Assembly (NCBI RefSeq): GCF_000247605.1
Contig: NC_016894.1
Span: 1,787,732 to 1,851,731 of the forward strand
Reading direction: 5' to 3'
DNA from: Acetobacterium woodii DSM 1030
GTDB lineage: Bacteria > Bacillota > Clostridia > Eubacteriales > Eubacteriaceae
Length of the DNA: 64,000 bases
The notes under the pieces are model-generated. The model was not told where the DNA came from. It ran no database searches and saw only the letters and a program-made list of their open reading frames with translations. The translations under genes and the position numbers were made by a program. Shown here in pieces: positions 50,028 through 54,235 of this stretch; position 1 is the stretch's first letter, and each line of letters begins with the position of its first letter.

Positions 50028-52340
50028 ATGACGATAAAGAAGATTAAAAAATTTTTTAATACGGTAATCTATAAAAACCTTGATAAAAATGAAGAAGCAA
50101 TGGATATTGGATTTTGGAAAAATAGAATTTTTTCATTACTGTCGTTTTTTCTTGTTTTTTTAGGGGGGCCGGTATTGCTGTATGGCTCATATTTGTTCTA
50201 TTGGGATGGTGATATCGCATTGGCTTTGGTAGAGGCCGCTTTTGTGGGAATATTTCTTATTGCCACCTATAAAAAGAATTTAAAAATAGAATATCGAAAA
50301 TTTATGATTGTCTTGAGTATCTATGCAATCAGTATTATCCTGCTTATTTATACAGGTCCATATGGAGCCGGAATGACCAGTGTTGTTTTTTCTTTTATTT
50401 TGGGTGTATCGCTGCTGAACAAAAAACACAACGAAATATTTTTCGCCATAAATATTGTTATCTTTATTGTTTTGACCGGACTGTTTAGTTTTGGTTTTTT
50501 TAGCGGCTTGAATATTGAAATATTTAAAAATAGTTGGATGATCAATGTAATTACAACGCAGTTGTATGTGCTGACTTTAATTTATTTATTTAATATTATC
50601 TATGATGGTTTGGGCAAACAAACCCAAAAAATTATTGAATCAAAGTTGTTGCTAGCTGCCAGTGAGGAAAAATATCGTCTCCTTGCGGATACCATGGCAG
50701 ATGTTATTTGGGTATTTAATGTAAATACCCAAAAATTTATTTATATCAGCCCTTCAATCGAAAATCTGCGGGGATTCACAGTAGAAGAAGCAATGGCTGA
50801 AAAACTTGACGAAACAATGACAATGAAGTCGGCACAAATGTTTCATCAAGAAATTTCACGTACTGCTAAAGAATTTATTACTGAGCCGGAATCTCCCAAA
50901 CGTTATATTAATGAGATTCAGCAAATTTGTAAAAATGGTGAGCTGGTCTGGGTGGAAGTTTCGTCCCGATATCGTTACAATGAATTGGGTGAAATTGAGA
51001 TTGTCAGTTCCAGCCGTAATATCAACGAACGAAAAATGAAAGAAAAAGAAATTACATATATCGATTTTCATGATCCGCTCACTGGTTTGTTAAATCGAAA
51101 AGCGTTTACGAAAAACATGTATGAAGCGATCATAAAGGGACAAAAAAGGTCTGTTATTATTATTAATATTGATAATTTCAGAATTATTAATGATGCTCTT
51201 GGTCATCGGGAGGGCGATGAAGTGCTTTCAGGAATGGCGGCAAAAATCGTGGAGATTGTTGGTCAAAATGGCTTTGTTTATCGATATGGCGGTGATGAGT
51301 TTGTGATTATTGTCGACTCACTTAAGTGTCAGCAAGTGAAAAAGCTGGCTCGGCAAGTACTTAAGACAATTTCTACGCAGTTTATGGTAGAAAATAGACT
51401 TTTTTATTTAACTGCCAGTCTTGGAATCGGCTTAGGTTCAGAGCAGGTCGATCTTGAACAAACGGTAAAAAATGCGGATACAGCATTATATATCGCTAAA
51501 AAACAAAAAAATAATATCACGATCTATGGTCATGAAATGGATCAAACCAGAACACGGGAGGCGATACTGGAAGAAGATCTGAAAACCGCTCTTGAAAAAG
51601 GTGAATTTGAACTTTTTTATCAACCGATTTATGATCAGAAAAATAGTGAGATTAATCAGGCAGAAGCGCTGTTGCGGTGGAACCACTCAAACCTTGGGAT
51701 GATCTCACCAAGCGATTTTATTCCCATCGCCGAAAAAACAAAACTGATTATTCCAATCACTGATTGGGTAATTTATGAAGTTTGTCAAAAAATAAAGCAA
51801 TGGAATGAGCTTGGTATTGATAAAATGACAGTTAGTATTAATATCTCGCTTTTATCATTAGAAAATCGTGGGGCGGAATTAACTGAATCCGTAAAAAATG
51901 GGATCCAGAAAGCAGGGATCAAAGCGGAAAAGGTCAAACTTGAGATAACAGAAAGTATTTTGATTCGCGATACCGATGAAATTGTAAATGTTTTTGATGC
52001 GTTGAAAAAAATTGGTGTAAAATTAGCACTCGATGATTTTGGCACGGGTTATTCATCTTTTGGCTGTATGAAAGATTTGCCGCTCGATATTATAAAATTG
52101 GATCGGTCTTTAATTAGTAATATTGTTACTGATGAGCGAGAACAAATGATTGCGCAATCAATGATTGCCATCATTCATGCACTTAATATCCAGGTGGTTG
52201 CCGAAGGCGTTGAGACAAGCGAACAACTGGAATACTTAAAACAATATGGCTGTGATTTTATTCAAGGGTTCTTTTTTAGTCGACCACTACCAGCCAGTGA
52301 ATTTATAAAGTATTATTTTAGCATGAAAAAGATGAGTTAA
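50028..52340 (+). CDS. Membrane PAS-GGDEF-EAL protein (770 aa)
   Basis: The N-terminal ~200 residues hold five to six hydrophobic helices (a MASE-like sensor). Then follow a PAS domain (about 220-340; ADTMADVIWVFNVNTQKFIY), a GGDEF domain with intact active loop YRYGGDEFVIIV (about 425), and an EAL domain (about 515-765) with AEALLRWNHS, EITESIL and LDDFGTGYSS. Both synthesis and hydrolysis of c-di-GMP are possible; which dominates cannot be told. AAAAGGA lies upstream of the ATG. The fluoride riboswitch follows, about 85 bp after its stop. Confidence 0.92.
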   Translation: MTIKKIKKFFNTVIYKNLDKNEEAMDIGFWKNRIFSLLSFFLVFLGGPVLLYGSYLFYWDGDIALALVEAAFVGIFLIATYKKNLKIEYRKFMIVLSIYAISIILLIYTGPYGAGMTSVVFSFILGVSLLNKKHNEIFFAINIVIFIVLTGLFSFGFFSGLNIEIFKNSWMINVITTQLYVLTLIYLFNIIYDGLGKQTQKIIESKLLLAASEEKYRLLADTMADVIWVFNVNTQKFIYISPSIENLRGFTVEEAMAEKLDETMTMKSAQMFHQEISRTAKEFITEPESPKRYINEIQQICKNGELVWVEVSSRYRYNELGEIEIVSSSRNINERKMKEKEITYIDFHDPLTGLLNRKAFTKNMYEAIIKGQKRSVIIINIDNFRIINDALGHREGDEVLSGMAAKIVEIVGQNGFVYRYGGDEFVIIVDSLKCQQVKKLARQVLKTISTQFMVENRLFYLTASLGIGLGSEQVDLEQTVKNADTALYIAKKQKNNITIYGHEMDQTRTREAILEEDLKTALEKGEFELFYQPIYDQKNSEINQAEALLRWNHSNLGMISPSDFIPIAEKTKLIIPITDWVIYEVCQKIKQWNELGIDKMTVSINISLLSLENRGAELTESVKNGIQKAGIKAEKVKLEITESILIRDTDEIVNVFDALKKIGVKLALDDFGTGYSSFGCMKDLPLDIIKLDRSLISNIVTDEREQMIAQSMIAIIHALNIQVVAEGVETSEQLEYLKQYGCDFIQGFFFSRPLPASEFIKYYFSMKKMS

Positions 52341-52425
52341 GATGAGTGACAGATAATGATTTAGCAGTTGATGTATTGTTTATAAAATCGATTGTTGAAA
52401 TTTATTCCCATTTCGAGTACACTCC

Positions 52426-52433
52426 TATATAAA
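52426..52433 (+). promoter_or_regulatory. -10 element directly upstream of the fluoride riboswitch
   Basis: TATATAAA just before GGGGATG would start transcription at the aptamer. No good -35 at 17 bp is seen; TTGAAA at 52395 is too far. Confidence 0.4.
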
Positions 52434-52525
52434 GGGGATGAAGTTCGCCTTGGCCAATGCCAAAATGCTGATAAGCTGATGACTTCTGCAAATAGTAAAC
52501 ATTGCAGGAGTTTTTACTTTTTTTG
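52434..52525 (+). promoter_or_regulatory. Fluoride (crcB-type) riboswitch with overlapping intrinsic terminator
   Basis: The aptamer (52434-52489) contains the class signature GGGGATGAAGTTCGCC, an internal helix with TGCTGATAAGC, and GCTGATGACTTCTGC; it lines up with the well-studied Bacillus cereus crcB aptamer as I remember it. The platform is classic: ACTTCTGCAA (52482-52491), the aptamer's own 3' strand, pairs over ten bases with TTGCAGGAGT (52502-52511) and is followed by TTTTTACTTTTTTT. Without fluoride the terminator should form; with fluoride the aptamer holds the strand and transcription proceeds into the dynamin-like gene 30 nt later. Confidence 0.92.
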
Positions 52526-52555
52526 TTATAAATCTAAAAGAAACAGAGGGATAAT

Positions 52556-54235
52556 ATGCAGGATACAAAAATATTGTCGATTTTAAAAGAAGTCGAGATA
52601 CTGTTGAGTAGAACCGGTATCAGTGATGATGAGATTAAAAAAGTTGTTGAGATTCGGAATAAAATAGAAAATAATGAGTTGGTTATTTCTGTTATCGGCC
52701 AGTTTAAACGCGGTAAAACATCATTAATCAATGCCCTTTTAGGTGCTGACGTGCTGCCTATAGGGGTGATACCGGTTACTTCGGTAGCAACTAAAATTCA
52801 ATATGGAGAAGAGGGCGTAATGGTTCATTTTAAAAATGGTGAAAAAGAGCGCATCTGCCTGAATGACTTGATCCGTTTTGTCGCGGAACAAGAAAACCCC
52901 AATAACCAGAAGGGGGTGTCATTTGTTAATCTTTATTTACCCTTTGATTTTTTAAGAAATGGACTTGTGTTGGTGGATACTCCGGGGGTTGGTTCTGTTC
53001 ATCAGAATAACACTGATGAGGCTTACGCTTTTATGAAAAAGAGTGATGCCATTATTTTTATGCTGTCGGTAGATAGCCCAATCAATGAAATTGAATATGA
53101 ATTTCTAGTTTCATCAAAGAAATATGCTTCCAAATTTTATTTTACGGTAAATAAAATCGATACGATTAGTTGTGATGATTTAAATGCTTATCTGAACTAT
53201 TGCCGGAATATTCTGCGGGAGATTATGTCAGCAGAAACCATTGCTCTGTTTCCTATTAGTGCAAAAACAAAATCGGGAATGAATGAGCTATTGGGGCACA
53301 TTGAAGAAGATATTCAAGATTCAACCGCATCTATAATCATCGATTCTGTTAAAATCAAACTGCGGGATATTTTAAAATTAGCGCTTGACCATCTCGAATT
53401 TTATCGCAATGCCAGCAATATGCCGCTGAAAGATCTGGAACAAAAACGTGAAGAACTAATTAGTCGATTGGAAAGTTTGGATCAACTTGCAAAAGAATCG
53501 ACGTACTATCTTCAGCAGCAGATCGATGAATTGCTTGAAGAGATTCGAATCGTAATTCATCGCGAATCTGAAGGGATTGAAGAACAGTTGATAGCGATAC
53601 TTAACAATGGGTACGAACAATATCAAAATAGAAAAACTAAAATTCTTGATGAAAAGTTTAGATTTCTGATCGAAACCGATTTAAGTAACTATCTCATTAA
53701 CCTTAATGATCAGGGGTTAGAAACGCTTGTAAACGGGTATGATAAGTTAACAGAGTTATTTAACAATAAGATTGATGCGGTTAAAGATTATCTGGAAAAT
53801 ATCATCTTTGAACTGTTCGGCACAGTATATCATTATAAAAAATCAATATATAAACTATCACAACGGGATGATTTTTACGTGCGTATTAAGCAGCAGCCAG
53901 TAGCTTTTCTGGTCGATATAAATGATTTCATTTATCTGATGCCACGGGGATGGGCCAATAAAAAAATTTACAGCCGCTATCAAAAGAAAATACAAAGTGA
54001 TGTTGAACATAATGTTAACAACATGATTTACAATTATCAATATAAATTAAAAGAAAGTGTTCGAGAACTAAAATATTATTTTCAAAATGAATCCGAGTCC
54101 TTAAAAAGAGAAATTGAGGATCTGATAAATCAGGTGATCGATGATAAAAAAATCATCGCAACAAAACTGAGTGCAAAACTAGAAGAGTTGGACAGCATCT
54201 ATAAGCAATTGGAGGAGTTACTGTTAAAAATTTGA
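52556..54235 (+). CDS. Bacterial dynamin-like GTPase under fluoride riboswitch control (559 aa)
   Basis: The GTPase domain lies at the N-terminus: G1 GQFKRGKTS (P-loop 48-56), G2 PVTS (73-76), G3 DTPG (141-144), G4 NKID (199-202). About 290 residues of long helices follow (EQKREELISRLESLDQLAKE and onward), as in bacterial dynamin-like proteins, with a moderately hydrophobic region near 445-465 that could be the membrane paddle. Such proteins bind and remodel or repair membranes. The ATG has AGGGA about eight bases upstream. It is alone downstream of the riboswitch; the next gene, a receptor, lies 91 bp on with no clear terminator. No fluoride channel gene is nearby. Confidence 0.88.
   Translation: MQDTKILSILKEVEILLSRTGISDDEIKKVVEIRNKIENNELVISVIGQFKRGKTSLINALLGADVLPIGVIPVTSVATKIQYGEEGVMVHFKNGEKERICLNDLIRFVAEQENPNNQKGVSFVNLYLPFDFLRNGLVLVDTPGVGSVHQNNTDEAYAFMKKSDAIIFMLSVDSPINEIEYEFLVSSKKYASKFYFTVNKIDTISCDDLNAYLNYCRNILREIMSAETIALFPISAKTKSGMNELLGHIEEDIQDSTASIIIDSVKIKLRDILKLALDHLEFYRNASNMPLKDLEQKREELISRLESLDQLAKESTYYLQQQIDELLEEIRIVIHRESEGIEEQLIAILNNGYEQYQNRKTKILDEKFRFLIETDLSNYLINLNDQGLETLVNGYDKLTELFNNKIDAVKDYLENIIFELFGTVYHYKKSIYKLSQRDDFYVRIKQQPVAFLVDINDFIYLMPRGWANKKIYSRYQKKIQSDVEHNVNNMIYNYQYKLKESVRELKYYFQNESESLKREIEDLINQVIDDKKIIATKLSAKLEELDSIYKQLEELLLKI

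Follow-up and report, generated by a model that had tools for sequence, protein, structure and literature searches.

In the genome of Acetobacterium woodii DSM 1030, a single contig of 4,044,777 bases, we analysed a window of 64 kb (positions 1787732-1851731) in which a fluoride riboswitch stands directly in front of a gene for a 559-residue dynamin-like GTPase and, judged from the sequence, very probably regulates it. Such control had been proposed in an initial annotation of this DNA, and it has strong support from the sequence itself and from the return of the pairing in samples of the genus, the class and the phylum. Riboswitch, terminator, gene, a family-wide association between them and a signature at the tip of the protein can all be read from the DNA. 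The explanation that we favour, and consider probable taken as a whole, is that fluoride switches on a membrane-acting dynamin that aids survival of fluoride.

The covariance-model search placed the fluoride family RF01734 at 40.7 bits (gathering cut-off 34, E 8e-8), the sole Rfam family to reach gathering level in the window. The crcB-type aptamer recognized in the initial annotation was thus confirmed at its location; the start given there (52434) lies 9 nt late relative to the model start. R1, a model trained on 17 fluoride aptamers none of which adjoins a dynamin gene, picked the identical place with 52.6 bits (E 3.9e-13), the runner-up in the window scoring 14 bits. In the window aptamer the P1 loop and the 3' strand carry the pseudoknot pairing GAAG/CTTC, and in eight of the 17 non-dynamin aptamers one of its pairs switches from G-C to A-U. 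In those 17 sequences, 90.5% of cells are paired across the three helices of the aptamer form, one of which is the pseudoknot. All slid controls fall below this form, and so do all 500 shuffles on four measures; on a fifth, further pair types, 191 of the 500 shuffles did as well. A caveat is that P1 of the window aptamer has one G.G mismatch, at which the eight orthologues carry U.G or U-A (columns 54/65). The core, GATGAAGTTC ... GCTGATGACTTCTG, is conserved across the nine aligned leaders of the genus, and the aptamers at all nine genus dynamins are of the long form (70-71 nt).

The aptamer had further been read as pairing through its 3' strand into a terminator, and folding agrees: a hairpin of 11 + 3 bp followed by CTTTTTTT (z -3.4; none of 200 shuffles equally stable) occupies the aptamer's own 3' strand (CUUCUGC), the expression platform overlapping the aptamer in the 5' leader. 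A simple terminator scan missed it, the loop limit of the scan being 8 and the hairpin loop 10. Hairpins capturing the aptamer 3' strand were found in all 13 leaders folded in a first set (z -3.3 to -5.9) and in five of six more distant ones, L184 being without (L and G numbers denote loci and genomes of the comparison); the distant leaders L181, L182 and L185 gave weak z values (-0.9 to -1.5), and L181 and L182 are near-copies. RNAalifold on alignment A2, which comprises the leaders of the nine intact orthologues in the genus, yields the terminator form, with covariation that is modest because double changes occur at just 2 of 23 pairs. An aptamer in competition with a terminator is the kind of ON arrangement that was inferred for the fluoride class in 2010 (PMC2864571). 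Upstream, the promoter-like block TTGAAA-17-TACACT ends 1 nt 5' of the first modelled aptamer position, for which reason the unpaired 5' flank of the aptamer model may be partly untranscribed. Promoter-like sites numbered 15 against 8.8 expected (standard deviation 3.0); because the hexamer match alone is not clearly above chance, the case for a promoter rests on conservation, the -35-like TTGA, the -10-like block, the aptamer core and the T run being kept in A2 while loops and spacers vary. The ATG of the dynamin gene follows the U run after 31 nt, with AGAGGG ending 5 nt ahead of it.

Features of the dynamin locus in the 64-kb window (positions counted from the first base of the window).
Feature	Position	Strand	Basis
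GGDEF/EAL protein, 5' neighbour gene	50028..52340	+	Pfam; relative of 66-69% identity near the crcB pair in 6 same-genus loci
Promoter-like hexamers TTGAAA-17-TACACT	52395..52423	+	9/12 consensus; TTGA and -10-like block aligned in 9/9 genus leaders
Fluoride riboswitch aptamer, long form (71 nt), with an additional small hairpin	52425..52495	+	RF01734 and R1; aligned with 8 orthologous leaders
Intrinsic terminator hairpin, using the aptamer 3' strand	52477..52516	+	Folding; consensus structure of 9 leaders
Terminator U run	52518..52524	+	Sequence
Shine-Dalgarno-like AGAGGG	52545..52550	+	Sequence; A/G-rich stretches ahead of starts in relatives
Dynamin-like GTPase, 559 aa	52556..54235	+	Open reading frame, Pfam, motifs, predicted structure
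P-loop GQFKRGKTS (residues 48-56)	52697..52723	+	Residues 48-54 invariant in 10-row alignment
Tip region (residues 434-478), containing AFLVDINDFIYLMPRGWANKK	53855..53989	+	Turn joining the two longest stalk helices; family mark

Within the genus the pairing is constant wherever the gene is intact. Nine of 19 same-genus genomes, the window's included, carry an intact orthologue (the eight others are 52-58% identical to the window dynamin), and all nine have an RF01734 match above cut-off directly upstream (35.4-48.4 bits). G002 holds a fragmented dynamin with a riboswitch of 32.5 bits, below the cut-off (L042 4616-5090), G018 a riboswitch at a contig end with no dynamin found, and the other eight genomes, three of them 83-87% complete, no orthologue and at most one aptamer. 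At L042, dynamin and riboswitch appear to decay together. Seven of the nine genomes have a second riboswitch on the opposite strand, 114-200 nt off (L041, L043, L044, L045, L046, L047, L032), which leads to a crcB pair in five and to a MutS-like pair in G011; in G013 (L046) the crcB-side riboswitch is kept and no crcB gene was found behind it. The crcB pair of the window genome lies elsewhere, behind its own short-form riboswitch of 59 nt at 3185660. Downstream of the dynamin in L043 come LysR and nitrite/sulfite-reductase-like relatives, the second of which is also found there in L045; in the window the gene 3' of the dynamin encodes a chemotaxis-type receptor. On account of the flanking genes (GGDEF/EAL, LysR, reductase-like) the sequence suggests that the window locus is the ancestral locus minus the crcB pair.

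Read in another way, the riboswitch would originally have been that of the crcB pair, with the dynamin gene merely coming after it, a relic that fits a window devoid of the pair and its place beside the dynamin in five same-genus relatives. We hold this to be very improbable and rejected it: the crcB pair of the genome has the separate 59-nt riboswitch, whereas the nine dynamin-side aptamers of the genus are all long, and this long form retains a promoter-like block and a terminator of its own, so that all three features belong to the dynamin; moreover, other families repeat the pairing with no crcB between riboswitch and dynamin. Near the crcB pair of L042 (6516) and L045 (6506) we also observed a NiCo riboswitch ahead of a P-type cation ATPase (Pfam on L045).

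A survey of genomes showed that dynamin genes behind fluoride riboswitches recur in the samples of the genus, the class (391 genomes) and the phylum (279 genomes) and in a set of named relatives (the best 80 of 103). The wider samples overlap with the genus; the counts for genus, class and named relatives share entries, since the seven Acetobacterium contigs among the named positives appear to be those of genus genomes. The class sample contains 59 Dynamin_N genes (E <= 1e-12) in 35 genomes and RF01734 matches (E <= 0.001) in 86. For seven of the 59 genes such a match lies on the same strand no more than 5 kb upstream, against about 0.02 expected from the gene and site numbers of the 13 genomes that contain both, which are made non-independent by kinship; among the seven, G082 scores 26.8 bits, under the cut-off, and G424 lies on a suspect contig. 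In the latter (L142), which is not counted as tip-bearing below, riboswitch and enolase precede the dynamin G domain, and the frame continues, as read from the translation, into an acetyltransferase-like end. Stricter filters, which lose weak matches, were applied where RF01734 was searched genome-wide over 40 genomes. Among the best 80 of 103 named relatives, R1 detected a riboswitch upstream in 12, namely seven Acetobacterium, Thermobrachium celere, Caloramator sp. and three metagenome-assembled genomes (MAGs) of Clostridiales/Bacillota.

The same counts bear on the proposal, also made in the initial annotation, that fluoride poisons the G protein so that more of it is needed. Fluoride-metal complexes would trap dynamin-type GTPases and the riboswitch would do no more than replenish a housekeeping enzyme that is being poisoned, an idea put forward for enolase; enolase, which is fluoride-sensitive (PMC11139923), indeed adjoins the dynamin in L139, L177, L184 and the suspect-contig L142. 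The window genome, however, has one Dynamin_N match (E <= 1e-12) and one close homologue, an orthologue was not found in eight of the 19 same-genus genomes (the eight that include the three incomplete ones) and is decayed in G002, and 52 of the 59 class-sample Dynamin_N genes are without a same-strand RF01734 match within 5 kb upstream. Chiefly because of the single match and the eight genomes, we regard compensation as improbable.

The riboswitch-linked dynamins are separated from other relatives by a C-terminal tip at the far end of the stalk. In the AlphaFold model, residues 422-463, with AFLVDINDFIYLMP, join the two longest helices (361-421 and 464-533), the second of which opens with the basic RGWANKK; the joining segment includes the most hydrophobic stretch beyond residue 250. 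A6, a profile of the C-terminal half, matches somewhere in 48 of the 80 named loci. The match runs through the tip in 13, all with at least 225 bits, and the remaining 35 score at most 25.3 bits, none reaching profile positions 79-105. A riboswitch lies upstream of 12 of the 13 tip-bearing genes, the thirteenth locus (L064) beginning at a contig end, and of none of the 67 relatives without a tip match (R1 at E <= 1 in the available flanking DNA, which is less than 1 kb upstream for L079, L103, L116 and L125; L132 is cut off ahead of the tip). The loci L071-L137 (Anaerovoracaceae, gut MAGs and relatives) contain a mostly shorter dynamin relative (about 400-590 aa) with no tip match and no riboswitch. 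Six of seven tip-bearing genomes of the class sample have the riboswitch, five of them above the Rfam cut-off, and G318 is without. In the phylum sample the tip occurs in 18 genomes besides G000, and 15 of the 18, spanning 11 families by their taxonomy labels, have a same-strand riboswitch upstream by R1 (E < 0.001), 13 above the Rfam cut-off too. Included in the 15 are L170 and L180, whose dynamin frames are broken and in which the profile found the tip, and L186, in which a run of same-strand genes separates the tip-bearing gene from a riboswitch some 7 kb upstream; in L185 the longest frame begins upstream of the aptamer and the true start was taken as downstream. The three exceptions are a weak match (L178, E 0.0087), a contig end (L169) and about 0.8 kb of upstream DNA (L172); L169 and L064 look identical (4994 bases, same frames). 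The C-terminal halves of three members gave no Pfam model above cut-off, and A6 searched against PDB sequences reached a best E of 0.16, with neither IniA nor any other dynamin matching at E <= 1.

Two trees were drawn. The first (113 rows, without frames below 380 aa, L142, L125, L132, L119 and one L092 frame) places L139-L141 apart and needs four changes of the label against 17.0 after shuffling, a statistic helped by near relatives. In the second (50 rows, first 340 residues, L064 and L065 omitted) the tip-less rows form one branch among riboswitch-linked rows, and its two label changes are equalled by all 500 shuffles. We rejected independent recruitment by two dynamin lineages; gain and loss are indistinguishable because both trees are drawn from a midpoint root.

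Around the dynamin the operons vary. Neighbours were named by Pfam on representatives (30 neighbour proteins in one set), which confirmed CrcB, enolase, MutS_V, Na_H_Exchanger, Usp, DUF6062, DUF190, GGGtGRT, MFS_1 and HEAT, and otherwise by tblastn or by reading translated starts. The dynamin gene stands directly behind the riboswitch, with none of these partners between, in the window, L065, L139, L141, L171, L179, L181, L182, L184 and L185. Elsewhere it follows a MutS-like pair (L033, L063, L067, L068), CrcB-CrcB-DUF190 (L140), an antiporter with or without UspA and DUF6062 (L173, L174, L175, L177, L183, L186), DUF6062 (L176), an MFS gene (L186), or IscU-like and GGGtGRT genes with a MutS-like remnant (L069). 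It precedes enolase in L139, L184 and L177 (in the last enolase has its own riboswitch), an MFS gene in L065, L181 and L185 and a HEAT-repeat gene in L182. Given such varied layouts, gene order marks the dynamin as an independent module of fluoride operons; its membership in a wider family of such operons had escaped the initial annotation.

From this company the dynamin could also be a chaperone within the fluoride regulon, either cytosolic or for membrane proteins, which would assemble or disassemble fluoride-stalled complexes (CrcB, antiporters, targets of the MutS-like ATPases) rather than bend membranes. It follows the MutS-like ATPase pair in the four loci named above and shares a region with one in L177; the NCBIfam models matched by the MutS-like proteins include that of a reactivase ATPase, KamC, far under the cut-off (33.9-80.5 against 300 bits); and CrcB or antiporter genes adjoin it in L140, L173 and L183. 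Yet the partner is not constant, since the window, L065, L141, L171 and L179 have the dynamin straight after its riboswitch with no such gene in the gap, and the predicted fold is nearest to membrane-acting dynamin-like proteins. We consider the chaperone role unlikely, if the most serious of the alternatives.

Several of the partners deserve mention for themselves. Short MutS-like ATPase pairs stand behind fluoride riboswitches, often ahead of the dynamin, at L032 5128, L033 5001, L063 3606, L067 3854, L068 3828 and L177 4967; MutS_V was identified by Pfam in L032, L033, L063, L067 and L177, and the 'DNA repair' label given to MutS-like genes in 2010 may be misleading. An IscU-like scaffold and GGGtGRT (PF14057, 610 bits in L170) follow the fluoride riboswitch at L067 1719, L068 1697, L069 4243 and L170 6563, pairs that make an Fe-S link to fluoride stress possible. 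DUF6062 is recurrent in fluoride operons, by Pfam at L173 5467 and L176 3988 and by translated-start similarity at L175 5256, L180 3994, L174 5506, L186 1114 and 5130, and L178 1568. Similar-looking MFS transporters adjoin the dynamin at L065 8722, L181 10784, L185 935 and L186 8652 (MFS_1, Pfam). In L177, tandem fluoride aptamers (8213 and 8337; 42.7 bits, the second weak at 24.5) precede the Na+/H+ antiporter.

The protein itself was correctly recognized as a dynamin-type GTPase: it matches Dynamin_N with 109.6 bits (Pfam cut-off 27) and has all of the G1, G3 and G4 motifs (GQFKRGKTS, DTPG, NKID). The predicted model (AlphaFold, mean pLDDT 84.9, a per-residue confidence score) comprises a G domain and then a helical neck and trunk, in line with the long helical stalk expected from the sequence. 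The distant member L173 was modelled as well and follows the identical plan: helices 382-442 and 485-552 flank a tip (443-476) that is unordered. By sequence, solved relatives are the Campylobacter dynamin pair (5owv, E 3.7e-18), BDLP (2j68, E 1.2e-13) and IniA (6j72, E 2.1e-10), and a search with the predicted fold was led by BDLP, IniA, mitofusin and Fzo1. Its TM-scores were low (0.32-0.41 of the query for the ten chains leading by E), which we attribute to differing neck and trunk angles. The predicted models resemble BDLP, IniA and mitofusin and have a flexible tip.

The protein falls outside the DynA and LeoA families. The best NCBIfam model is DynA (NF052648; 72.8 bits, cut-off 1600), and the LeoA/HP0731 family (NF041922) gives 21.3 bits against a cut-off of 325; both assignments were rejected. 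Since the LeoA model is also the best PADLOC match (E 1e-23), an anti-phage or toxin-export dynamin of LeoA type, fluoride-regulated by incident, might be considered; with the NCBIfam score so far below cut-off, no second Dynamin_N gene (E <= 1e-12) in the genome to act as LeoBC partner and fluoride genes as company in many loci, it is the least credible of the alternatives. A mobile-element origin was likewise rejected, the plasmid search (phages and viral contigs lay outside it) having returned two matches at E <= 1e-20 that span 38-41% of the protein and none spanning 80%.

Several known systems resemble parts of the locus. With the RF01734 regulon it shares the aptamer, the overlapping terminator, the activation logic and the company (CrcB, Na+/H+ antiporter, enolase, mutS-like genes). 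IniA of mycobacteria (PDB 6j72/6j73), for which we know of no riboswitch, has the common plan of GTPase, neck and trunk, carries a loop at the outer end of its trunk and is stress-induced; it is 15-16% identical to the window protein over 478-495 aligned residues (root-mean-square deviation near 10) and differs in being drug-induced. IniA binds lipid via the loop at the trunk end, chiefly through basic residues (PMC6715688). The tip described here has conserved basic residues in the same region of the trunk, A6 finding no IniA sequence match at E <= 1, and by this analogy its basic end is plausibly the counterpart of the IniA lipid loop. BDLP of cyanobacteria (PDB 2j68), with mitofusin/Fzo1, is a further likeness; BDLP has a helix-hairpin paddle (PMC6715688), whereas our models show mainly an extended tip. 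DynA of Bacillus subtilis, the best NCBIfam model, is a stress-linked membrane dynamin, thought to be recruited to damaged membrane (PMC8844932), and differs in model length (1187 against 559 aa).

A membrane role of the dynamin is, in our judgement, fairly probable, and the membrane protection suggested as a possibility in the initial annotation would fit the predicted fold and the conserved tip. The favoured sequence of events would be as follows. The promoter immediately 5' of the aptamer would initiate the leader RNA; without fluoride, the aptamer 3' strand would pair into the terminator and transcription would end. Fluoride enters as hydrogen fluoride and accumulates inside the cell (PMC11139923). 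There, as a Mg-fluoride complex, it would let aptamer and pseudoknot form and block the terminator, so that the dynamin would be transcribed and, termination once lifted, produced together with exporters. The protein, on this view a bacterial dynamin-like protein devoted to the fluoride response, would then bind GTP, touch the inner membrane via the conserved trunk tip and, by analogy with DynA, use GTP to seal, remodel or shore up a fluoride-disturbed membrane, while CrcB, antiporters and replacement enzymes would handle the ion and its targets. A bolder version, which we consider a long shot, has the dynamin gated twice, by riboswitch induction and then by metal-fluoride with GDP, which would lock the assembled membrane-bound form, as an old fluoride-defence effector of the phylum. 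If it were true, metal-fluoride with GDP would mimic the transition state of hydrolysis and the poison itself would activate the membrane coat.

The aptamer, the links to mutS, antiporter, enolase and exporter genes, and bacterial dynamins as such are already known. New with respect to the texts searched are a dynamin as the target and the link of fluoride to a dynamin family defined by its tip. A dynamin-like target was not named in the available main text of Weinberg 2010 (term search) nor, in a search for the word 'dynamin', in the available parts of the reviews PMC11139923 and PMC7266159, and the literature searched, which did not extend to Baker 2012 and its supplement, where a dynamin may be listed, gave no paper joining fluoride riboswitch and dynamin. 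Bacterial dynamin-like proteins are widespread and few have a known inducing stress; here the sequence names the chemical signal for a whole family. The pairing points to an unrecognised part of bacterial fluoride defence and suggests the membrane as a target of fluoride poisoning beside the known enzymes. In Acetobacterium, fluoride export is linked to defluorination (PMC11139923), and an added effector could matter for organofluorine-degrading bacteria such as these.
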